A stretch of DNA of 17,101 nt from Candidatus Hydrogenedentota bacterium. GTDB taxonomy: Bacteria > UBA8481 > J006. The position numbers were made by a program, and so were the translations under genes. The notes under the pieces are model-generated. The model did no database searches. It saw only the letters and a list, made by a program, of their open reading frames with translations, and had not been told where the DNA came from. The stretch's first letter is position 1, and the number at the start of each line of letters is the position of its first letter. Positions 3 to 12,760 of the stretch are shown piece by piece. Where the stretch lies: NCBI GenBank assembly GCA_003697085.1, contig RFFU01000009.1, forward strand, positions 1 through 17,101, given 5' to 3'.

Positions 3-3000
3 ATGCTCCTCGACGAATCCTCACCACCCGCTCCGCTCCGCGTCGCTCGAGACCACGAGAGATCACGAGAGAGGTTAATTTATGCTTCAAGAAACACACA
101 CTCTTCTCCAATCTCTGTGTCCTCTTGTGCCCTCTGTGGTGAAAATTCTTCGGATCGATCTGTCGTAACCGTCGGTCCGTCCGTTGCGCTTCTTTCGGCT
201 CATCTTGCGACAAGCCTGATCATCCAGACCCTGATCACACAAACCGGCGGCGTCACGGTGGAATACCAGGATGCCTTCGGGAACAAATCCTCTTACAGCG
301 GATCCGGCACCGTCACGATCAATGGCAAGACGTTCAACGTTACGATCACGAACGGCCGGGTGACCATCCCGCTGTCGGAACTGTCGGCCAAAGGCGTGAG
401 CGCTCCGTACAGGCTCGGCGCCGCCACAGCGGCCGGCAAATCGATGAAAGTCGAACAGTCCTCGGCATCTGCGTCGACGGAAAAGAAATCCGGATCCCGC
501 CGCAGTGATGATCTCAACTTCACCTATCTCTACCAAGGCAAGCAGAGAACCGCCAGGGAAGCCAGAAATAACGAAGAACTTCGTCAGGCGCTCTGCTCCA
601 TCCCGGAGGTCAACGACGCCTGGCCCTTCACCTGCGGCCGCGTCTGCGAGGATGATCCGGACTATCAATTCGTGCTCAATAGCGGAAAAGAAGTGGGTTG
701 CGCCTGGATCACCCAGAACGCGGGTAAGACCGCCATAAGGAGGGAGAAATACGCTGATTACAGTTCTGGAGGAATAACGGTCCGCGAGGCCTGTCCGGTC
801 TCCATGAACTATTGCTTCTCCGAAGTGAAGGTCGCAAAAGCGAGTGCGACGAAACTCATCGTATCCTCGACGAGTCCGACCGATGCCAAAGCGGGCGAAA
901 AGTTCGCCACGGCCGAAAAGCCCCTCAAGGTTGAACTGCGCGACAAGGACGGGAATGTCGTCACGACCGCCACCGGCAAGGTGAAGGTCGAGAAGATTTC
1001 GGGCGACGGAACGCTTACGGGCGATCTCGAGGCGACGGCCGAAAAAGGCGTCGCCAACTTCAAGAACCTCTCAATCGACAAGGCCGGGACCTACAAACTC
1101 AAGTTCACATCTGGCGATCTCACGCCGGCCGAGGCAACGATCACTGTCACCAAGGCGTCGGGAACCATCCAACACAAGCCTGAAGCCAATCCCTACGCTC
1201 CTTGGGATTTCGGGCTTTTCATCGAGCCCGCGTCGCCCAAGGCCGGCGACAAGGTCCGCTTCCGGATCAAGGGCCGGGCCTCGTTCACGGAGGACTTCAA
1301 GGAACTGGCCGGCTTGGGCGGAACAACGCCTGACAAGATCGTCAAGGTTACGGTTAGCGATTCTTCGGGCCGGGTCATTGCGACAATCACCGACGGAACG
1401 CTTTCGTCCGACAACTTCCTAACCTCCGCCTGGACGGTGCCGAAGGACATCGCGGACGGACTCTACACGGTCAAAGGCTATCTGATCACGCGGCCGTCGA
1501 TGGCCGACAAGACGTTCCGAATCGGACCGAAGACAACGAACACACTCAGGGTTACTGTTTTGAGAGGTCCGCTGACCTTTGTTGATAAAAACGGTAAAAA
1601 GCGCACGCTCAAGGATGGCGAGACGTATCCGGCGGATTCGAAGAAGAACAAAAACGGCAATGACGACGCCCAAAAGAAACTCGAGAAATTCGCGAAGAAA
1701 GCTCAGAACCAGAACGGCGGCAATAAGAAGAAACCATCTCTCGCGGCTGGCGGCGGATGGTCCCTGGGAACCCCCGAGTCCGCTCTGAACGGCAAACTCA
1801 CCATCAAATCGCGCCCGTCATCGGTGCCCCCGGGCGGCACGATGGATATCCTCCTTTCGGGAGACACCTCGACCATCGGGTTGCTGACTCAGTTACTGCC
1901 ATACACCGATAATTACAACAGGCTGGTGCTTGCTCGTGAGCACAAGCTTGACCTGTCTGGAAAAAAGCTCGTTTTGGTGAATTCCCGCTCCTCTGATCGC
2001 GAAATACTTGTTACAGCACGCTTGCCGCAAGACGTCACGCCGGATCAGGGTGATTATTACGTGACCGTTGTTATGGTGGACCTTCTTGGCTACACCGCAC
2101 CATTCAAGATCAAGGGCACGCCGGCGGCGGCTCAGATGAGGCGGGAAGCGTTGCGGAAGAAGGTTGATCTTGTGCTCAAGGGACTTTTTGAGTCGTACGA
2201 GAATGAAAGTCCGTCCGGGTTTATGCAGTACATTTCGTCTTCATTCTCGGGGACCGCCGATAACCTCATTGCGCTTTCGTACTCCACGCTTCAGCCGAGT
2301 ATCGAGCAGGATTTCCGTAACTTCTACGACATCGATTTCGACTGGACGGTCAATGCCGTCCGTGAATACGGTTCGAAAGTCGAGGTGGAACTGACCTGGT
2401 TTGAACGGTACAAGGACGAGACGGGCAGTAATGCCGGGAAGGAGACGAAGCGACTCTCCCAGACATCGACATTTGACTTCGATAACACCGGCGGGGTTCT
2501 GAAACTCTCCACATGGAACGGCGCGGCGCCGTTCGGCCTGGCGCCTCCAGGCGGGATCTTCACGAAGCAAGCCGGCGCCGAGACGACGACCGTCACGACT
2601 TCCGGAAGCGGCGGCGGTGGAGGCGGCAGCGGCTGCCCGACCGGTGAACTCTGCATCACTGCCGATACAACAATCGTGTCGAACCTCTCGATCGGAACAG
2701 CCGGGACCTACACAAAGGTCACCGTCTCCGCCGGCGTCGTCGTCACGATGAGCGCGGGAACGAAGATCGATCTTCAATCGGGCGGAACGCTCGACATTGG
2801 ATCCGGAGCGAAGCTTCAGGGAACCGGCGGAGCGGGAAGCTGGACGGGACTGGTGATCCAGGGCGGAACATTGACACAGCAGGGAACGCTCACCATCGAC
2901 GGCGCAACGAACGCCATCGAACTGACGGCCGGGGCTAGCCCCACCGTAACTCAATCCGGCGCGTTGACGCTGACGAACTTCTCGACACGAGGTATCAAGG

Positions 3001-5165
3001 CCGGGGCAAGCGGGTCGCTGACACTCTCCAGTGTGAACGCATCGGGAGCGGGCATTATCGTCGAATCGACGGGCGCAGCGTTGACATTGACATCTCCGAC
3101 GATTGCGACAACCGGAACGACCGCCGGTACCTTCTCCGGCGGAAGTGCGGTAACGATCTCGAATGGAACAATTACCGGCGGTTTGGCATTCACTTCCACC
3201 GGAGCATCCAGTATCTCGAATACGACGCTCACCGGCGGGACGAATAACATCACCCAGAGCGCGGGATCGTTGACGCTCTCGAGTTGTACGCTCTCCGGCG
3301 CGACGGGAACACCGCTTTCGATTACCGGCGGTACAGCGGCGACATTGACGTCAACGAACGTGACTTCCACAACGGCGACCTCGGCTAGTTTCGGCGGTGC
3401 CGGAACCTTGACCGTGACGGGCGGAACCTTCACGGGATCGGTGATCTTCAACACCTACTCCGGGACAGGAAACTTCTCACCGACGGGCGTGACCGGCGGT
3501 GGGAACATCATCGATCTGCAGAATATGACGGGAACACTAACCATGACCGGAACAACGTTGACCTCGTCCGGCGCCGCCACGCGCGGCGTAGCCTTCACAA
3601 GCGGCTCGGGAACGATGAATCTTTCGGGCATTACTACGGCCGGAAACATCACGACGGAGATCGAGAACGGCGCGGCATCGACCGGAACGATCAACATCTC
3701 CGGAACCAATAACCTGAACGCAACCTCGACTACCGGAATTCTTTCGGATGCCGGAACGATTTCGCAGACCTCCGGTTCCATCGCCATCGCCTCAGCCACG
3801 ACCGGAATCAGCGTCACCGGCGGTTCCGCATCCTTCTCCGGCGTATCGTTCTCGGCGATCGGGACAACGCCTCTGGCCGTCACGGGCGGCACGGCGTCGG
3901 TAAGCAATTCGACGATCTCCGGCGGAACGAACAACGTTACGCAAACCGCGGGAACACTGACCCTGACAACCTGTACCCTGACCGGCGCAACCGGAACACC
4001 GCTTTCGGTCACGGGCGCCACGGCCACAACTCTGACCACGCCGACGGTGACTTCCACCACGACAACCTCGGCCAGTTTTGGTGGGGCCGGAACCTTGACC
4101 GTGACGAACGGAACTTTCACGGGCTCGGTGGTCTTCAGTTCGTACTCGGGTTCCGGAAACTTCTCACCGACAAGCGTTACGGGCGGCGGGAACATCGTCG
4201 ATCTCCAGAACTTCACCGGTACGCTGACCATGACCGGAACCGCACTGACGGCCTTCGGCGCGACAGACGGCGGTCTGGTCTTCACGTCCGGCTCGGGAAC
4301 GGTCAACGCCTCGGGAATATCGACGACCGGATCGATCAACAACACCGGATCATCCGCGGCGATTATTATGGCGGCGGGAGTCTCCGGAACCGTGAATTTG
4401 AGCGGCGCCAACGCCTTCGGAACGACGCTTTCGAACGGGATCATCGTGGATGGCGGAACGGTCCAGAGCGCCGCGGGTTCGACGGCTCTTGCGGGAGTCA
4501 CGGGCGACGGGATCAAGATCACCTCCGGGACAGTGAATCTGTTCGGCGTCTCGATGATGGCTGCCGGCGCCAATTCCTATCTGACGGCCACGGGAGGAAA
4601 CACGACTCTGAACACGGCAGGATTCACGGGAGCGGTAACGTCGGGAATTGTCCAGAGCGGTGCGGCAAGCGTGACGCTCACCAACTCCAGTGTGGACGGT
4701 TCGTCAGGCGCAGTCGTCGCCGTCACGGGTAGCGGAAACACGACGCTGACGAACACGGTTCTGACGGGCGGCGGCGCGGGAGCGGACGGTCTGACATTCG
4801 GGTCCAGCGGCGCGCTAAGCATCTCCGGCGGCGGAGTCGGCGCGAATCAGAACGACGGTGTCGTGATTTCATCCGGAAGCGCCACTATTTCGAACGGAGC
4901 GACGATCAGCCTGAACGCAAACGGAGTCAACGTGACCGGGGCGGTGACGGTGAACCTGACCAACGCGAATCTGACGACGAATTTCGGCCTCGGGGTAACC
5001 GGAATTCCGGGAGCAACCATCAATCTCGATGGATGTTATATTGCCGATAACAACGGCGAATTCGGCCCGACGCTCGATACCAGCGTCCCGACGGACCTGG
5101 GCGGCTTCAACCCTCAATACGACAACGTGGATTCGGTGACGAACCCGAGCGCAATTCCGAACTGA
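3..5165 (+). CDS. Giant secreted/surface protein: Ig-like and NTF2-like segments plus long beta-helix
   Basis: The frame is open to the left edge and gives up to 1720 residues. The first ~50 codons run through repeat-like DNA (see 115-141), so the true N-terminus is uncertain; in-frame GTG codons lie at 117 and 258. Segments by residue of this frame: a beta-rich stretch (~85-150); a domain with six cysteines (~168-276); a Big-type Ig-like domain (~279-386) with the usual '...GVANFKNLSIDKAGTYKL' ending; further beta sandwiches (~396-520 and ~593-703) split by a Lys/Asn/Gln-rich linker (~543-577); a segment (~707-843) whose pattern suggests an NTF2/SnoaL-like fold; a glycine linker (~868-876); then ~840 residues of Thr/Ser/Gly/Asn-rich parallel beta-helix repeats. 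Within the helix ~145 residues are duplicated. No sorting signal, autotransporter barrel or PEP-CTERM is visible at the C-terminus. The likely role is an extracellular adhesin or structural protein; the ligand is unknown. The gene is certain, the function is not. Confidence 0.8.
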   Translation: MLLDESSPPAPLRVARDHERSRERLIYASRNTHSSPISVSSCALCGENSSDRSVVTVGPSVALLSAHLATSLIIQTLITQTGGVTVEYQDAFGNKSSYSGSGTVTINGKTFNVTITNGRVTIPLSELSAKGVSAPYRLGAATAAGKSMKVEQSSASASTEKKSGSRRSDDLNFTYLYQGKQRTAREARNNEELRQALCSIPEVNDAWPFTCGRVCEDDPDYQFVLNSGKEVGCAWITQNAGKTAIRREKYADYSSGGITVREACPVSMNYCFSEVKVAKASATKLIVSSTSPTDAKAGEKFATAEKPLKVELRDKDGNVVTTATGKVKVEKISGDGTLTGDLEATAEKGVANFKNLSIDKAGTYKLKFTSGDLTPAEATITVTKASGTIQHKPEANPYAPWDFGLFIEPASPKAGDKVRFRIKGRASFTEDFKELAGLGGTTPDKIVKVTVSDSSGRVIATITDGTLSSDNFLTSAWTVPKDIADGLYTVKGYLITRPSMADKTFRIGPKTTNTLRVTVLRGPLTFVDKNGKKRTLKDGETYPADSKKNKNGNDDAQKKLEKFAKKAQNQNGGNKKKPSLAAGGGWSLGTPESALNGKLTIKSRPSSVPPGGTMDILLSGDTSTIGLLTQLLPYTDNYNRLVLAREHKLDLSGKKLVLVNSRSSDREILVTARLPQDVTPDQGDYYVTVVMVDLLGYTAPFKIKGTPAAAQMRREALRKKVDLVLKGLFESYENESPSGFMQYISSSFSGTADNLIALSYSTLQPSIEQDFRNFYDIDFDWTVNAVREYGSKVEVELTWFERYKDETGSNAGKETKRLSQTSTFDFDNTGGVLKLSTWNGAAPFGLAPPGGIFTKQAGAETTTVTTSGSGGGGGGSGCPTGELCITADTTIVSNLSIGTAGTYTKVTVSAGVVVTMSAGTKIDLQSGGTLDIGSGAKLQGTGGAGSWTGLVIQGGTLTQQGTLTIDGATNAIELTAGASPTVTQSGALTLTNFSTRGIKAGASGSLTLSSVNASGAGIIVESTGAALTLTSPTIATTGTTAGTFSGGSAVTISNGTITGGLAFTSTGASSISNTTLTGGTNNITQSAGSLTLSSCTLSGATGTPLSITGGTAATLTSTNVTSTTATSASFGGAGTLTVTGGTFTGSVIFNTYSGTGNFSPTGVTGGGNIIDLQNMTGTLTMTGTTLTSSGAATRGVAFTSGSGTMNLSGITTAGNITTEIENGAASTGTINISGTNNLNATSTTGILSDAGTISQTSGSIAIASATTGISVTGGSASFSGVSFSAIGTTPLAVTGGTASVSNSTISGGTNNVTQTAGTLTLTTCTLTGATGTPLSVTGATATTLTTPTVTSTTTTSASFGGAGTLTVTNGTFTGSVVFSSYSGSGNFSPTSVTGGGNIVDLQNFTGTLTMTGTALTAFGATDGGLVFTSGSGTVNASGISTTGSINNTGSSAAIIMAAGVSGTVNLSGANAFGTTLSNGIIVDGGTVQSAAGSTALAGVTGDGIKITSGTVNLFGVSMMAAGANSYLTATGGNTTLNTAGFTGAVTSGIVQSGAASVTLTNSSVDGSSGAVVAVTGSGNTTLTNTVLTGGGAGADGLTFGSSGALSISGGGVGANQNDGVVISSGSATISNGATISLNANGVNVTGAVTVNLTNANLTTNFGLGVTGIPGATINLDGCYIADNNGEFGPTLDTSVPTDLGGFNPQYDNVDSVTNPSAIPN
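115..141 (+). repeat. CTCTGTG-type short periodic repeat at the apparent gene start
   Basis: CTCTGTGTC, CTCTTGTGC and CCTCTGTGGTG follow one another with a period of about nine bases. This is a variant of the TTCCGTG blocks seen at 7358-7460. On the opposite strand it reads as Thr-Thr-Glu-Gly-Thr-Arg-Gly-His, a peptide pattern typical of spurious open frames over this kind of repeat. A related CTCTCGTG pattern occurs on the other strand at about 48-75. Its presence argues that the DNA before ~140 is intergenic and that the large protein starts after it. Confidence 0.5.
3216..4337 (+). repeat. Internal duplication in the beta-helix region (copies 3216-3650 and 3903-4337)
   Basis: Two segments of about 435 bases lie exactly 687 bases (229 codons) apart. 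They encode near-parallel sequences that share, in order, 'GGTNN', 'SGATGTPLS', 'TSASFGGAGTLTVT', 'GNFSPT', 'VTGGGNI' and 'FTSGSGT'. The offset stays constant, so there are no indels between the copies. The 84 codons between the copies are not part of the match. This looks like an in-frame segmental duplication that lengthened the beta-helix by whole turns. Confidence 0.85.
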
Positions 5166-5985: not shown

Positions 5986-6609
5986 CTAAGTACCGAAAAA
6001 TCGATCTCCCGCGTCGCCCAACCCGGGCACGATAAATTTCCTGTCGTTCAATTCGGGATCCAGTGCCGCCGTGATAATCGGAACGTCCGGATGGGCTTTT
6101 CGTACTCGATCGACTCCGGCCGGAGCGGCGATCACCGAAACGAGCCGGATCGATTCCGGCTTTCGCTCCTTGATCCTCGCGATCGCGTATTCCGCCGAAC
6201 CTCCCGTCGCCAGCATCGGATCGAGCACGAAGACATCCGTGCCTTTGAGACTTTCCGGCCCTGAAATGTGATATTCGATGGGGCGAAAAGTCGTTTCGTC
6301 CCGGTAGGCGCCGATCAACCCGACGCGGGCATGCGGAAAGACTTCCAAGGCTCCTTCCAAAAGGCCCAACCCCGCCCTCAGAATCGGATAGAGGACGATT
6401 TCGTTTCTCAGATGCAGCGCGTCCGCGGTTCCCAGAGGCGTCTCCACGGTTCCTGAAACCGTCGGCAATCCCCGGGCCGCTTCGTACACGAGAAACGGCG
6501 CCAGAGACTTCATCGCCGTGCGGAACTCCGAGGGTGAAGTTCCGGCATCTCGTAGAATGCGGATCCTGTCGGAAACGACCGGATGCTCGGGAATATGAAG
6601 ACCCGTCAC
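5986..6609 (-). CDS. upp: Uracil phosphoribosyltransferase
   Basis: 207 residues, the usual length for Upp. The enzyme converts uracil and PRPP to UMP in pyrimidine salvage. Diagnostic motifs are 'PILRAGLGLLEG' (75-86), the PRPP loop 'VLDPMLATGGSA' (128-139) and the C-terminal uracil-binding 'IVPGLGDAGDRFFGT' (193-207). The start chosen is GTG at 6609. It shares the four bases GTGA with the stop of rpiB and sits seven bases after a GGAGG, giving the family-like N-terminus MTGLHIPEHPVV. The in-frame ATG at 6630 would add seven residues and overlap rpiB more. The gene is co-transcribed with rpiB and probably translationally coupled to it. A small GC stem (5943-5960) lies in the gap after the stop. 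Confidence 0.96.
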   Translation of the reverse strand: MTGLHIPEHPVVSDRIRILRDAGTSPSEFRTAMKSLAPFLVYEAARGLPTVSGTVETPLGTADALHLRNEIVLYPILRAGLGLLEGALEVFPHARVGLIGAYRDETTFRPIEYHISGPESLKGTDVFVLDPMLATGGSAEYAIARIKERKPESIRLVSVIAAPAGVDRVRKAHPDVPIITAALDPELNDRKFIVPGLGDAGDRFFGT

Positions 6610-7100
6610 GACCTCGCCTCCGTCTTCCATCCCCGTTCCCGCTCTTCCGCTTCTCCATTTTCGTCCAATTGCCTTACGCGGCGCGCGTGGCGCCCGCCGG
6701 CAAACGGTGTCTCGAGAAAGATTTCGACCATCGTCCACGCCGTTTCCGGTTCCAGAAACCGGCCCGGTAGAACAAGAATGTTGGCATCATTGTGCTCGCG
6801 CCCCAGCCGCGCCAACTCCGGACTCCAGCAGAGCGCCGCGCGGATCCCCGGGATCCGGTTCGCCGAAATACTCATTCCGATCCCGGACCCACAAATGAGA
6901 ATTCCTCGAACCTCCTCGGTCGAATCGGCGGCCGCGGCAAGGAGAGCGTGTGCCACGGCGCGGCCGATCGGCGGATAATCCACCGACTCCCCCGTTTCCG
7001 CACCGAACCGTTCAACGCGAAACCCTCGTTCTTCCAAACGGCGCACCAGTTCGCTCTTCAACGAAAACCCGGCATGGTCGCTTCCAATCAGGATTCTCAT
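6606..7100 (-). CDS. rpiB: Ribose-5-phosphate isomerase B (RpiB/LacAB family)
   Basis: 164 residues from ATG 7100. It interconverts ribose 5-phosphate and ribulose 5-phosphate. Family motifs are present: 'GSDHAG' (6-11), 'DYP' (41-43), the catalytic cysteine loop 'CGSGIGMSI' (70-78), 'NRIPGIRAAL' (81-90) and 'HNDANILVLPGR' (103-114). Cys70 and His103 correspond to the active-site Cys/His of the family. The last ~20 residues are charged (EEREREG-like) and longer than in many homologues. It is first in a two-gene unit with upp. The pairing makes sense because ribose 5-phosphate is the precursor of the PRPP that Upp consumes. Longer in-frame extension upstream runs into repeat DNA and is not believable. 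Confidence 0.95.
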   Translation of the reverse strand: MRILIGSDHAGFSLKSELVRRLEERGFRVERFGAETGESVDYPPIGRAVAHALLAAAADSTEEVRGILICGSGIGMSISANRIPGIRAALCWSPELARLGREHNDANILVLPGRFLEPETAWTMVEIFLETPFAGGRHARRVRQLDENGEAEERERGWKTEARS

Positions 7101-7535: not shown

Positions 7536-10034
7536 ATGGTTGCTTTGATCGCGGAAACATACCAACCCTTGATCCTATTTCTGTTGGCGTTTCAGTACGT
7601 CTTCGTGAACCTGGCGTTTTCGACGTACACGCAGAACATCGTTTTGATCAAGGACCTCTCGGCGCCTCTCTTCTCCATGCTGATCCTGATCGTCTGGATC
7701 ATCGGAGACTTGGCCAAGGAGGGGCGCTGGCGTCTTCCCCGTCATCCCATCGTCCCCCCTATGGTGGCCGCGTTGCTCTACTGGGGAACGACGGTCTTCT
7801 TTTCGCCAGTGACGGCCGCCAGCATCGAGGAGTGGGGAATGTTCGCTTCCTACTTCGTCCAGACCTGGGCGCTGATCCGTTTTCTCGAAACCGATGAGCA
7901 ACTCCGCACTCAAATGTTCTGGGTGATCCTCTGCAATATTGCCGTCACGGGCTACGGTCTGAGCCAGATGATGGGCCAGGACCTTTTGGTCAACCTCGGC
8001 CTCATTCCGAATTGGGGAAACGACGTCTTCGTCTCGACTCACGGAAACACGAATTTCCTCGCAGGCTACATCGTCACGACGTTTCCCGCTTTGATCGGCT
8101 ACTGGTTCGTTACCAACAATATCGCCTGGCTTCTCCTCCTTCCACCGTTGATTCTGCTGAATCTCGTTGAGGTCCAACATTCGGATGCCCGCGGGGCCTA
8201 TATTGCGACGGCGGTTGTGTTGTTCGTAATGGTAGTTGGGATGTTGGCCAACCTGCGCCAACTCACGTCACTCAAGGAGCGTTGGCGGCGTATCATTCTC
8301 GGAACCGCGGCTGCTCTGGCTGTCGTCGGCGCTCTTCTCCTCGGCGTCATTTATCCCGATCGAGTGGAAAAAATGCTGACGGACATCAAGGTACAGGTTG
8401 ATTCGATGAAAGGCCTTCAAGGTCACTGGACGAATCGAGCGAGGTTGATCTTCTGGCAAACCGGCATCGACGGTGGCCGGTACAATCCATGGTTCGGCCG
8501 AGGGATCGGCGGGTTCAACTATTACATGCCGGAATTTCGCCCCCCCTGGTACCACCGTTGGGGTGTTTCGCACAACACGATGCATTCCCACGATGAATAC
8601 TTCGAGATGTTTATGGAGACGGGCGTCATCGGTTTGGCCTGTCTCCTCTGGATTATGCTTCATTATCTGATCATCACACTTTCGGACGCTTTTCGTCATC
8701 GGCGTCATCTGCTCTTTCCCCTGATTTTTTGCGGTTCCTTCGGCCCCTGGGCCGTTTGGATCCAGTCACTCTTTGATGTCGAGACACGATGGACAGGAAA
8801 TGCCGTTACGATCTGGTACACGGTAGGCCTGATCTTGGCGGCGGGAACACTTCCTCTGCGAGAACCGCAAACGGCTCTCCTTGCGACCCAAACGGCCGAA
8901 GAAGAACCGCGGGCACGGCGGCGGAACCCGCGGGCACGACGGGAGCCGCTCTACACACCCTCGCCGTACCTCCCCTACGTAGCCAGCCTTCTTTGTCTCG
9001 CGTTCGCCTTCTACTGCGTCAAGGCTTACCATTATTGGATGGCCGACCACTATCTACGGGAAAATATGGCCTACACCGACTACAACATCGGTAATAGCAA
9101 GATGAATGCCTTGAAAGCGGCGGAAAAGGCCCGTGAATACTCTTATACCAATGTCTCCAACTATTACAAATTGGCTTATACCTATCTTCAGGCAGGAAAC
9201 GGCTTCAAGGCCCTGGAGAGTTATCGCATTCTGCAATCTTTTGCGCCGAACTATGCCCAAATCCATATCAATCTCGCCTATCTCGACGACCGGCTCGGAT
9301 ATCGGGCCGCGTCGGCTTGGGAGCGGGACCGAGCCGCCTTAATCGAACACAACGGCCGCAACCACCGCGACGCCGCGAATTACTGGCTTCAACTCAGTTA
9401 TCCGAATCGCGCTCTCTCCCACCTCTACCTCGCGTCCCTCATCGAACGTGATCGGACCGACGGCTCCTATTTCTTCTGGTATATGCAGGACGAAATCAAT
9501 ACCGACCTCGCCCAGGTTCTCCAATCGATTGGAAGACTAAACGAGGAAGTCGAGGACGCGCTGGAACGCGCACTGAACTTCAACCCCGGAAACGTCCGCG
9601 CCGCCGTGATGCTCATCAGACTCTATAAGCGCACGGGAAGACCTCAAAAAGCGGCACAACTGCTCGATAACGTCATCGCGATGACCTCGCCAAGGACACC
9701 GGAAGGCTTGATACTTCGTGCTCTGAAGTTCGTTGAAGACGGCGATTATTTCGAGGCTTTGCAGGCTCTCGAACCAGCAGTTCTCGCTCTTAAACCCGTC
9801 AAGAAACCGAATATCAGTCCCGAGCAAGGCTTTCTTACAAACACGATCCTCGAGCTACTACAGAAAATCTTCTCCGCGAATATTGACCGTGTTACGTGTA
9901 TGAAATTGGCCGGATGGGTTTACGCTTCCCAGGGACGATTGCGGGAAGCGGAACAATTTCTCACCCAAGCGTATCAGGCATCACGGAATCCCGACATCGC
10001 CGAGCTCATCGGACAGCTCAAGGCTTTGAAATGA
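7536..10034 (+). CDS. O-antigen ligase (Wzy_C) family membrane protein with C-terminal TPR domain
   Basis: 832 residues from ATG 7536; upstream in-frame codons lie in repeat DNA. About ten hydrophobic segments span residues ~11-440. They include the Wzy_C/O-antigen-ligase core with 'SDARGAY' (216-222), then a large loop with 'NPWFGRGIGGFNYYMPEFR' (317-335) and 'HNTMHSHDEYFEMFMETGVIG' in part (346-366). This is the Arg- and His-bearing periplasmic loop typical of the family. An Arg/Pro-rich linker (~455-475) and one further membrane segment (~478-498) lead into TPR-like helices (~540-830). WaaL-type enzymes transfer undecaprenyl-linked glycans to lipid A-core; relatives polymerise polysaccharide or glycosylate proteins. 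The TPR fusion suggests protein partners. No glycosyltransferase cluster flanks it, so the substrate is open. No Shine-Dalgarno site is visible before the ATG. Confidence 0.85.
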   Translation: MVALIAETYQPLILFLLAFQYVFVNLAFSTYTQNIVLIKDLSAPLFSMLILIVWIIGDLAKEGRWRLPRHPIVPPMVAALLYWGTTVFFSPVTAASIEEWGMFASYFVQTWALIRFLETDEQLRTQMFWVILCNIAVTGYGLSQMMGQDLLVNLGLIPNWGNDVFVSTHGNTNFLAGYIVTTFPALIGYWFVTNNIAWLLLLPPLILLNLVEVQHSDARGAYIATAVVLFVMVVGMLANLRQLTSLKERWRRIILGTAAALAVVGALLLGVIYPDRVEKMLTDIKVQVDSMKGLQGHWTNRARLIFWQTGIDGGRYNPWFGRGIGGFNYYMPEFRPPWYHRWGVSHNTMHSHDEYFEMFMETGVIGLACLLWIMLHYLIITLSDAFRHRRHLLFPLIFCGSFGPWAVWIQSLFDVETRWTGNAVTIWYTVGLILAAGTLPLREPQTALLATQTAEEEPRARRRNPRARREPLYTPSPYLPYVASLLCLAFAFYCVKAYHYWMADHYLRENMAYTDYNIGNSKMNALKAAEKAREYSYTNVSNYYKLAYTYLQAGNGFKALESYRILQSFAPNYAQIHINLAYLDDRLGYRAASAWERDRAALIEHNGRNHRDAANYWLQLSYPNRALSHLYLASLIERDRTDGSYFFWYMQDEINTDLAQVLQSIGRLNEEVEDALERALNFNPGNVRAAVMLIRLYKRTGRPQKAAQLLDNVIAMTSPRTPEGLILRALKFVEDGDYFEALQALEPAVLALKPVKKPNISPEQGFLTNTILELLQKIFSANIDRVTCMKLAGWVYASQGRLREAEQFLTQAYQASRNPDIAELIGQLKALK

Positions 10035-10110
10035 TTTGCCCTGTTTTTGACGATCACGAGCCGGCCCGCCCAGCACGCCCGGCCCGAAAGAATCCCGCAA
10101 TAACGGGTGC

Positions 10111-10235
10111 ATGGCGAAAAACGGGCACCTCTTTCCGAATCGTATCGGTCCACTCCTGGGCGAAACCCTGCATATGATCGGGGGGGCCGAAAGGTAACCC
10201 TCTCCGAGCCCATTATTGCAGGCACGATGCCTGCC
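10111..10235 (+). repeat. 125-base dispersed direct repeat, copy 1
   Basis: Aligns without gaps to 10672-10796 at about 80 percent identity by hand count. It ends in a perfect 7-base inverted repeat, GCAGGCA-CGA-TGCCTGC (10218-10234). On the minus strand both copies can be read as 'GFAQE-TDTIR--VP--RH', so the changes spare one frame. No start codon, length or context supports a protein. Confidence 0.75.
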
Positions 10236-10323
10236 AGCCAGCAGGCGGGCCTGCGCTCCCAGGAATGTCTGTTTGGCTAAATTTGACCTTGCCCAAAATT
10301 TGCCATATACCCCGTAAGAACGG

Positions 10324-10361
10324 AAAAAAGGAGCGAAAGCGAAGGGGAATCCCGTCCCCCT
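10324..10361 (-). terminator. Possible terminator of the small basic protein gene
   Basis: On the minus strand AGGGGGA (10355-10361) can pair with TTCCCCT (10343-10349). A run of six T follows at 10329-10324, but 13 bases beyond the stem, which is far for a Rho-independent terminator. It is the only candidate downstream of the gene at 10477. Confidence 0.3.
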
Positions 10362-10476
10362 GACTCGGATTCTCCTTCCGCCATTTTATCGTTTCCCCCC
10401 GCCTTCGTCGGTATCCTCCGTGATCCCGCGCTGAACCACCTTTCCGAAAAACTCGTACGATGCTCCGGCGAGAAAA

Positions 10477-10572
10477 TTACCGTTTCTTCTTCTTGTGGCG
10501 GTCCCGTTTGCGCTTTTTCCGGCGCTTGTGATTCGCCATCTTTCGTCTAAGACGTTTCTTACCGCAAGGCAT
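10477..10572 (-). CDS. 31-residue basic protein resembling bS22/COX24 (AURKAIP1-type) ribosome-associated proteins
   Basis: An ATG at 10572 to TAA at 10477 encodes MPCGKKRLRRKM-ANHKRRKKRKRDRHKKKKR, in which 21 of 31 residues are Lys or Arg. The order 'P-GKKR-R-KMA-HKR-K---RHKKKK' matches, from memory, a family of ~30-residue bacterial proteins annotated as AURKAIP1/COX24-domain proteins, related to mycobacterial small-subunit protein bS22. An AAGGAG lies ten bases before the ATG, and a -10-like TATGAT at 10637-10632. Such a protein would bind rRNA in the small ribosomal subunit. It is too short for usual gene callers. A competing longer frame over the same DNA (10386-10724) has no family resemblance. 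The alternative, chance low complexity, is unlikely given the phased motif and ribosome-binding site. Confidence 0.75.
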   Translation of the reverse strand: MPCGKKRLRRKMANHKRRKKRKRDRHKKKKR

Positions 10573-10631
10573 TCTTGACACGCTCCTTGATCAACTTTTC
10601 TCCTCCTTCTTTCCGGGTGAAACACCTTTCT

Positions 10632-10637
10632 ATCATA
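10632..10637 (-). promoter_or_regulatory. -10-like TATGAT upstream of the small basic protein gene
   Basis: TATGAT on the minus strand lies 60 bases before the ATG at 10572. The nearest TTGCGC is only 12 bases upstream of it, so no properly spaced -35 is evident. Repeat copy 2 begins 35 bases further upstream. Confidence 0.25.
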
Positions 10638-10671
10638 AGCTTCACGCCCGCGCAAGTCCGGGTTGGATGCA

Positions 10672-10796
10672 ATGGCGAATAATGGGCACCTTTTGCCGAA
10701 TCGTGTCAGTCTGCTCCTGGGCAAAACCCCGCATAGGGTCGCGGCGGCCGAACGGTGATCCTCTACGAACCCGTTTTGGCGGGCAAGATGCCTGCG
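10672..10796 (+). repeat. 125-base dispersed direct repeat, copy 2
   Basis: This is the second copy of the element at 10111-10235, at a constant offset of 561 bases. Its terminal hairpin is GCGGGCA-AGA-TGCCTGC (10779-10795), where one A-T pair has become a G-T wobble while the rest of the stem is kept. It ends 60 bases short of the small membrane protein operon and starts 100 bases upstream of the bS22-like gene. Confidence 0.75.
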
Positions 10797-10807
10797 TTCC
10801 CAGGGGG

Positions 10808-10855
10808 AAAAACCGTGTCTTCCGGAACCGCACCCGATTTCCGGGGCCGAAATCG
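10808..10855 (-). terminator. Possible terminator of the four-gene operon
   Basis: Directly after the stop of the last gene the minus strand can form CGATTTC/GAAATCG (10855-10849 with 10841-10835, seven pairs). Alternatively it can form CCGGAA/TTCCGG (10844-10839 with 10827-10822), followed nine bases later by TTTTT at 10812-10808. The two stems are mutually exclusive. It is plausible as a transcript end but not a textbook terminator. Confidence 0.35.
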
Positions 10856-10856
10856 T

Positions 10857-11078
10857 CTAATCGAAGCTCTTCATTCCTTTCTTCAAGATGAGAATAATCG
10901 CCGTGATTCCAAGAATCATCCCCCAGAAAGTATAGGCGGCGGCATCCTCGCTCAAGGGCCGTCCTGTATAGGCCCCGAAGGTGGAGTTGATGATCGTGGC
11001 CGCGATGGACTTCATAAAACCCCAAACCGTCCCGACAACCTTGAGAAACATCCGCGCCAATGACTCAAAAAACGCCAT
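10857..11078 (-). CDS. Small membrane protein, family not recognised (73 aa)
   Basis: ATG 11078 is preceded by GGGGAGGTGA five bases away, a very strong ribosome-binding site. A GTG nine bases upstream falls inside that site and is rejected. The N-terminal half is amphipathic with evenly spaced Phe, Met, Leu and Lys. A clear membrane segment (~50-66, 'FWGMILGITAIILIL') is followed by 'KKGMKSFD', so by the positive-inside rule the C-terminus should be cytosolic. It overlaps the upstream gene's end by 14 bases, which implies coupled translation. It is the last gene of the operon. I do not recognise the family; size and shape would suit an accessory subunit of a membrane complex. Confidence 0.75.
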   Translation of the reverse strand: MAFFESLARMFLKVVGTVWGFMKSIAATIINSTFGAYTGRPLSEDAAAYTFWGMILGITAIILILKKGMKSFD

Positions 11079-11307
11079 CGCGGTCACCTCCCCGGTAATA
11101 CGAAATTCTCACTGAGAGAAACGCCAAGCCGTAAGACGTCAGAACGAAAACCGGCCCGAGGAACGCCGGAAGATTCTCAGCGAAAGTGTCAACCCGAGTC
11201 AACAGCCCCTCTCCGGCCAAGAATAGAACCCCCGTGGCGGCAAGCCCGGCTCCGGCAACCGCCTTCCGAACAGACCCGCCGCTCACAATCGCCCCTCTTC
11301 TCACCAT
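11065..11307 (-). CDS. Small two-helix membrane protein, family not recognised (80 aa)
   Basis: ATG 11307 overlaps the end of the TPR gene by seven bases; the GTG directly after it would give the four-base GTGA overlap and is equally possible. A basic N-terminus (Arg3, Arg4, Arg14, Lys15) precedes two hydrophobic segments (~17-35 and ~46-66), then a charged tail 'YYRGGDRDGVF'. This predicts both ends in the cytosol. Its end is overlapped by the next gene. The tight packing on both sides supports a real operon member. Its function is unknown. Confidence 0.7.
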   Translation of the reverse strand: MVRRGAIVSGGSVRKAVAGAGLAATGVLFLAGEGLLTRVDTFAENLPAFLGPVFVLTSYGLAFLSVRISYYRGGDRDGVF

Positions 11308-11873
11308 CCCGCAAGAATCAATCGCGCAACGCGGTGGAGCCGTTCGGAAGAGGGATCAAGAACCCGCGCCCGCTCCAATGCCGCGACAGCGGCCTTCTTC
11401 CTGCCCAGGCGAAATTCCACGAGAGCGATATCGATCTGCAATTCTGGGTCGCCCTCCCGAAACCGCGCCAAGTCCCGATATACGGCCAAAGCCTTCCGGT
11501 AATCTCCCGTTCGGAAATAAATCAAGGCTTCCAAAAATCCGGCTTCGGCAAGAAAGGGATCCAGTTCGCGGCCGCGAGCGGCTTCCTCAACGGAACGCGC
11601 CCAAAGATCGCTCCGAAGTTCGCGGACACGATCGCCCCAAGAATACAACGCGCGCGCGAGTCGCAGGTGACCTTCCGCCGCATACGGCACCTTCTCAACC
11701 GCTTCCTCATAGGCTGAAACCGCTAAAGCGAATTCTCCGGCGGCCAAATGCGCGTCTCCGTGGCGCAAAGACTCTGAAAACCCCGTATCCACAGCCCCGC
11801 TTCCATACGGATGCGCGGAAACTCCGAAGGCAAATACCAGCAGACAGACCCCCGCAATCACCGTTCTTTTCAC
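11301..11873 (-). CDS. Exported TPR-repeat protein
   Basis: 190 residues from GTG 11873, which follows AGGAGG by nine bases and starts directly at a good signal peptide: 'MKRTVIAGVCLLVFAFGVSA', with cleavage likely after Ala20. An ATG at 11930 would put 19 charged residues before the signal and overlap the previous gene. The mature part contains four TPR-like helical pairs (~32-65, 66-105, 110-140, 145-178), including 'AEAGFLEALIYFRTGDYRKAL' in part and 'IALVEFRLGRKKAAVAALERA' in part. There is no lipobox cysteine at the cleavage site. It is likely periplasmic and a protein-protein scaffold. It lies 40 bases after the cNMP-fold gene and overlaps the first small membrane protein gene, so the three products after it are probably made together. 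Confidence 0.85.
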   Translation of the reverse strand: MKRTVIAGVCLLVFAFGVSAHPYGSGAVDTGFSESLRHGDAHLAAGEFALAVSAYEEAVEKVPYAAEGHLRLARALYSWGDRVRELRSDLWARSVEEAARGRELDPFLAEAGFLEALIYFRTGDYRKALAVYRDLARFREGDPELQIDIALVEFRLGRKKAAVAALERARVLDPSSERLHRVARLILAGW

Positions 11874-11913
11874 TCGTTCCTTCCTCCTCGAACCTTCTTT
11901 CCCCTCCGGACAC

Positions 11914-12411
11914 TCACTTCTTATCGGCATTTCCGTGCAGGATCTGCGACAATTCCCTGTTCACTCTGCTCAAACGATAACAGAGGACCTTGTTGATCGC
12001 CTGAATGATCTTGAAAGCCAGCGTCGGATCCTCCAAAACGATCGAATCGAAATGATTGCGATGGAGAAGATAGAGGGACGCGGGGCCATCCGCCTCGGCC
12101 GTGGCCGAATGCGTCGTCCCCATCAGAAAGGCGATCTCACCGATGATGTGACCCGTGCTCAGATGCGTGAGAATGTTCCGCGTTCCATCCTCGTTCTCGA
12201 TCACGATCCGTATGCGCCCACTTTTTATGATATAAAGCGTCTGCCCCTCTCCCCCCTGCTCGAAGAGAACCTCGTCCGGAGCCAGTTCCCGCTCTTCGAG
12301 ATGCTCGTAAAGCAGCTGAACCTCCGCATTCGTGAGAAAATCGAGCATCTCGTCGAAGCGCGGAAGTTCCTCGGCCGTCAGTAAGGCCCCTTTTTTGTCC
12401 TCGTCTCCCAT
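11914..12411 (-). CDS. Cyclic-nucleotide-binding-fold protein without DNA-binding domain
   Basis: 165 residues from ATG 12411, which has AAGGGCGGA just upstream; ATG 12426 and TTG 12483 are alternatives. Residues ~24-145 form a CAP-family sensor domain: 'LAPDEVLFEQGGEGQTLYII' (43-62), 'GRIRIVIENEDGTRNIL', then the phosphate-binding cassette 'GHIIGEIAFLMGTTHSATAEA' in part (87-107). Glu92 of the cassette is present, but the usual Arg before Ser/Thr-Ala is His101. The ligand may therefore differ from cAMP/cGMP, or binding may be lost. After the sensor comes only a dimerisation-type helix (~129-160), with no winged helix, so it is not a CRP-type transcription factor by itself. It heads the operon and is divergent from a diguanylate cyclase gene. 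Confidence 0.88.
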   Translation of the reverse strand: MGDEDKKGALLTAEELPRFDEMLDFLTNAEVQLLYEHLEERELAPDEVLFEQGGEGQTLYIIKSGRIRIVIENEDGTRNILTHLSTGHIIGEIAFLMGTTHSATAEADGPASLYLLHRNHFDSIVLEDPTLAFKIIQAINKVLCYRLSRVNRELSQILHGNADKK

Positions 12412-12760
12412 TCCGCCCTTAATCATTGACCAACTCGCCGGAAAAGTAAAGCGACTTTCAAACGTTAAATCAGCGTCCGTCAATCCCCCCCCACGACTGC
12501 CGCACCTTTCCTGCCGTCCGGTAGGCGGCGCGGCCGAGGAGCCGCGCTTCCCGTTTTTCTCCCTTTGCCTTATACGACTCGCAGGAATCCGATCCTAAAT
12601 TTCCACGCGAATTTCATCAAACCTCCCCTCGTTACCACCGATAAGGAGGAAAGAAAGCGGTCGATCACCGCAAGTTTCTTCTTCGCGGACCTCTCAAAAA
12701 AACCGCCGCGGAAGGGCTCGGAGGAGAAAGCCGAAGATGAGAAAGTGAGGAACGTCTGAA
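12412..12760. other. Divergent control region between the cNMP-fold operon and the diguanylate cyclase
   Basis: No credible gene is present. A 64-residue frame ending at 12759 has no ribosome-binding site at its TTG and is low-complexity. A strong AAGGAGG (~12644-12650) is not followed by a start codon at a useful distance. The region must hold promoters for both flanking genes; I found no pair of -35/-10 boxes good enough to call. Confidence 0.5.
12528..12557 (+). terminator. Terminator-like hairpin in the divergent control region
   Basis: GCGCGGC-CGAGGA-GCCGCGC (12528-12547) is a perfect seven-base GC stem with a six-base loop. It is followed after five bases by TTTTT (12553-12557). It points rightward, but no rightward gene ends here. 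If functional it could attenuate the cyclase transcript or insulate the operons; it may equally be another intergenic repeat. Confidence 0.4.

Follow-up and report, generated by a model that had tools for sequence, protein, structure and literature searches.

The small ribosomal protein bS22 is known from solved ribosome structures, in which it occupies a pocket of 16S h2, h27, h44 and h45 and contacts 23S H67/H68, so that the subunits gain a further bridge close to the decoding region (PMC10618245, PMC10085706, PMC6133939). It has been linked to mitochondrial mS38 (PMC6582356), and the mitochondrial mS38/COX24/AURKAIP1 proteins, as well as eL41/aL41, occupy an analogous pocket (PMC10618245, PMC10085706, PMC6582356), although eL41 is tied to bS22 by position and shape alone. 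Within the family, a figure of 37% has been given for Cutibacterium acnes bS22 against Flavobacterium johnsoniae bS22 (PMC10085706). The bS22 gene of Borrelia burgdorferi is an essential-gene candidate that had formerly gone unannotated as a ribosomal protein, and the paper on the Borrelia ribosome foresaw that such bS22 finds would follow (PMC10618245). The bS22 family, its ribosomal location and its escape from annotation have all been published before, and the 31-codon gene described here is a new member of this already known family in a sparsely sampled phylum.

The 31-codon frame and its resemblance to bS22

The window, by which we mean the whole 17,101-nucleotide stretch of Candidatus Hydrogenedentota DNA that was analysed, has on its minus strand an ATG...TAA frame at 10572–10477. 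Translation confirmed the earlier note's reading of this frame and gave a product of 31 residues plus stop, MPCGKKRLRRKMANHKRRKKRKRDRHKKKKR. The Shine-Dalgarno-like AAGGAG that the note had pointed to is likewise present, at 10588–10583 on the minus strand and 10 nt 5′ of the ATG, and GGAG/AGGAGG-like sites lie at a similar distance upstream of most of 8 homologues from other genomes. Within the gap around the frame (10035–10856), the window ORFs included no second convincing gene and no sigma-70-type promoter was found, and there was no Rfam match anywhere in the window. The gene is present as one copy in the source genome. Its product had been described as almost purely Lys/Arg, a slight overstatement for a strongly basic peptide in which Lys/Arg make up 20 of the 31 residues (65%). 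A helix was predicted over residues 5–30 (mean pLDDT 92.7) from single-sequence input, a result that any Lys/Arg-rich peptide would be expected to give. The product is thus, as expected of bS22, ~28–35 aa long, strongly basic and predicted to be helical.

When the product was compared with all PDB chains by phmmer, the matches were exclusively to bS22 or AURKAIP1/COX24-domain ribosomal proteins, namely B. burgdorferi bS22 (8fmw_V, E 5e-5), an AURKAIP1/COX24 domain-containing protein (9i5v, E 1e-4) and F. johnsoniae S22 (7jil, E 2e-4). All three alignments were ungapped and ran end to end over residues 1–28/30, a full-length homology to structure-verified bS22 at E 5e-5 to 2e-4. A 12-sequence profile returned the same three entries from the PDB at E 2e-14 to 4e-13, values that are partly by construction as these chains are rows of the profile; outside the profile, a mitochondrial mS38 chain (8a22) scored E 0.049, and the Mycobacterium / Cutibacterium bS22 proteins were not recovered in the PDB by this profile. 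Over the 12 aligned sequences 12 of 31 columns are invariant, and every one is kept in the product, which also carries the phased motif MPxGKKR...K...HKxxK.....RHKK.

Borrelia bS22 (8FMW, bb0822; PMC10618245) is similar in its MPCG start, its ungapped alignment at 61% identity, its Lys/Arg content (61%, versus 65% for the window product) and its former lack of annotation; it differs in having a GUG start, in coming from another phylum, and in that its placement on the ribosome is experimental whereas ours is by homology. F. johnsoniae bS22 (7JIL, Bacteroidota) has 30 aa, the pattern MPxGKKRxRxK..xHKRxK...RHKKKK and 63% identity, but carries Ser at position 3 where the window product has Cys. 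Among the matches listed, Bacteroidota copies mostly do not have Shine-Dalgarno sites, whereas the window gene has one. The Mycobacterium and Cutibacterium (Actinobacteria) proteins are likewise small basic helices, reported to lie in that ribosomal pocket (PMC10085706, PMC6133939), but C. acnes bS22 has 33 aa and the Actinobacteria type is more distant in sequence. Mitochondrial mS38 is usually longer than the window protein.

A chance Lys/Arg-rich frame in GC-rich intergenic DNA could look like bS22 through composition only, and this frame is indeed short, extremely biased in composition and adjacent to dispersed repeats. However, ungapped BLOSUM62 scores against the three solved bS22s were 106–113, whereas 3000 shuffles for each of these three sequences gave means of 43–47 and a maximum of 74 (z ~11), never coming near the observed score. 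Similarly, the real peptide matched 9 of 41 genomes and one scrambled peptide of like composition matched 0 of 41. Together these results show that the match to bS22 lies in residue order, and not in Lys/Arg content alone.

The HMM check proposed in the earlier note did not pass, as Pfam COX24_C (PF08213) gave the product 7 bits, below its gathering cut-off of 23 bits. Yet the same model scored one of the three structure-verified bS22s at 11.8 bits and did not match the other two, and no NCBIfam model rose above its cut-off for the product or for the three solved proteins. Because verified bS22s fail too, this outcome is uninformative on membership; the COX24_C model does not represent this bacterial bS22 branch. 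That these models fall below cut-off for the branch is partly why the gene was overlooked, and gene finders tend to miss genes this short. Since neither Pfam nor NCBIfam catches this branch, many genomes are probably without a bS22 annotation.

Codon conservation and gene order in a second genome of the phylum

The other genome of the phylum in the compared set (G001) belongs to the same order and a different family, and both of the two genomes carry the bS22 gene. The G001 copy, MPCGKKRLKHKMATHKRRKKRRANRHKNKKV, is 77% identical to the window copy with its frame intact. Over 30 codons, 11 are identical, 12 synonymous and 7 amino-acid-changing, and the nucleotide differences fall 3/5/16 on the three codon positions, placing 16 of 24 on the third. 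With one genomic copy, this is the pattern of a single-copy gene under purifying selection. The earlier note had suggested looking in relatives for kept codons with synonymous changes, which is what G001 has; the opposite outcomes it named, an absence of conserved-codon homologues or a broken frame, were not seen there. In G001 the frame, the stop and the gene order are all kept and the changes are third-position-biased, so the chance reading is already refuted by codon conservation, and we give it practically no weight. The intact 77% copy with its third-position-biased changes, the synteny and the matches to solved ribosomal proteins together place the frame beyond chance.

We also considered an overlapping 112-aa TTG ORF (10386–10724, minus strand, other frame), of which the 31-codon frame might be the shadow. 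It is longer and open, and tblastn gives it a weak match of 41 residues in G001 (E 0.002). However, that match is its sole notable one in G001 and falls on the bS22 gene, no counterpart of it is among the listed G001 ORFs of ≥50 aa, and the codon-position bias fits the bS22 frame. We therefore rejected the 112-aa ORF as a real gene, reading its G001 match as a shadow of bS22 conservation, and consider it exceedingly improbable that it is the coding frame. The bS22/COX24-like identity put forward earlier is supported both by the matches to 8fmw, 9i5v and 7jil and by codon conservation within the order, and on this sequence evidence 10477–10572 (minus strand, 31 codons plus TAA) is, with high confidence, a real gene encoding ribosomal protein bS22.

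The window and G001 share the order GGDEF (divergent), cNMP-binding, TPR, two small membrane-type proteins, bS22 and uracil phosphoribosyltransferase. In the window, where the cluster genes are on the minus strand, the first is a cyclic-nucleotide-binding-domain protein (11914–12483; Pfam PF00027, E 9.6e-21; 69% identical in G001), followed by a TPR-repeat protein (11301–11930; Pfam TPR; 41%, same place in G001). Next comes a small hydrophobic protein (11065–11307) for which tblastn gave no match in G001, its correspondence to a similar-sized ORF at the same place being by place and size only, and then the small membrane-type protein directly before bS22 (10857–11087), whose counterpart directly before bS22 in G001 is 31% identical. 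The uracil phosphoribosyltransferase gene (5986–6618, minus strand; NCBIfam upp; 69% identical) is next after bS22 in G001 and stands apart from it here.

In G001, bS22 starts 37 nt behind the membrane-protein gene, at the end of the conserved cluster, and this spacing suggests that it is probably the last gene of an operon there. In the window, bS22 is parted from the upstream cluster by one copy of a dispersed repeat (10655–10810, plus strand), and a second copy (10111–10234, plus strand, 81% identical to the first) stands with other genes between bS22 and the uracil phosphoribosyltransferase gene; both copies lie outside the bS22 gene. The repeat is ~130–150 nt long and is also seen at loci L010–L029; genome-wide it has 41 or more matches (145 first-look candidates), and its consensus contains GCATGGCGAAAAATGGGCACCTTTTGCCG...GCAGGCAAGATGCCTGCGCTCCCAGGAA. 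The isolation of bS22 in the window is a local rearrangement, with the upstream cluster as the likely ancestral operon. The gap of about 820 bases reported earlier is real (822 bases, between ORF ends at 10034 and 10857), but the gene is free-standing only locally, as a dispersed repeat parts it from an operon whose end it probably occupies in G001. In G001 (L171), copies of a short unit, GGAATGGCGTGTAGGGGCAGACCTATGTGTCTGCCC, lie directly past the bS22 stop at ~3350–3500, so that repeats are gathered at the bS22 site in both genomes. Elsewhere in the window, an ORF at 3–5165 (plus strand; 1720 aa from the listed start) has a Gly/Ser/Thr-repeat-rich C-terminal half with a beta-helix-like look and a 300-nt internal direct repeat at 3219 and 3906 (77%).

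Predicted place on the ribosome

From the solved homologues we infer both the location and the role of the product on the ribosome. As bS22, it would be the bacterial counterpart of mitochondrial mS38/AURKAIP1/COX24 and most likely a basic helix on the small subunit, the helix being bent in solved homologues. This helix would be buried in the 16S h2/h27/h44/h45 pocket under the decoding region and would extend to 23S H67/H68 as an extra bridge between the subunits. In this position it would help to hold h44 and the subunit joint stable while translation proceeds.

According to one report, free C. acnes bS22 inhibits bacteria as well as translation in a cell-free system (PMC10085706), and the window gene is not part of a ribosomal protein operon. 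Both points would suit a peptide derived from bS22 that works mainly off the ribosome, for example as an antimicrobial or nucleic-acid-binding peptide. However, the product keeps every invariant family column, the gene is single-copy in its genome, and neither a secretion signal nor an exporter neighbour was seen in the sequence; moreover, Borrelia bS22 is ribosome-bound and its gene an essential-gene candidate (PMC10618245). We consider a mainly extra-ribosomal job very unlikely. As a ribosomal protein, bS22 is an additional ribosome component for this phylum, of which the compared set has two genomes.

Distribution across Bacteria

The bS22 profile matched 33 of 98 genomes, each from a different family, with one copy apiece; the count is approximate, since a few of these are weak matches or show a stop within the matched frame or the frame around it. 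Over all genome sets searched, bS22 is single-copy in every genome with a match. A degenerate DNA pattern for the phased motif found at least 118 loci in named genomes, all reading as bS22 frames of ≤35 codons, a few of them as shorter frames of 17–24 codons. Among the matches listed, titled records come from Bacteroidota, Ignavibacteria, Chlorobiota, Neomarinimicrobiota, Cloacimonadota, WOR-3, Spirochaetes and one PVC-group genome. Beyond the phyla for which it has been published, bS22 is common and by no means an exception. The suggestion that this copy would extend the family to this lineage therefore stands insofar as the phylum gains a member, but the family was already widespread (33 of 98 genomes).

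It is possible, though we hold this only tentatively, that bS22 is an old ribosomal protein across much of Bacteria, systematically unannotated, lost from some lineages, that of E. coli among them, and forming one ancient family with mS38. The wide but uneven spread of bS22 offers a way to ask which features of translation accompany its presence or loss. A contig titled as a Streptomyces griseus MAG (CALPIT020000020.1, L045) has a Bacteroidota-type bS22, which is likely a sign of contamination or a mislabelled bin.
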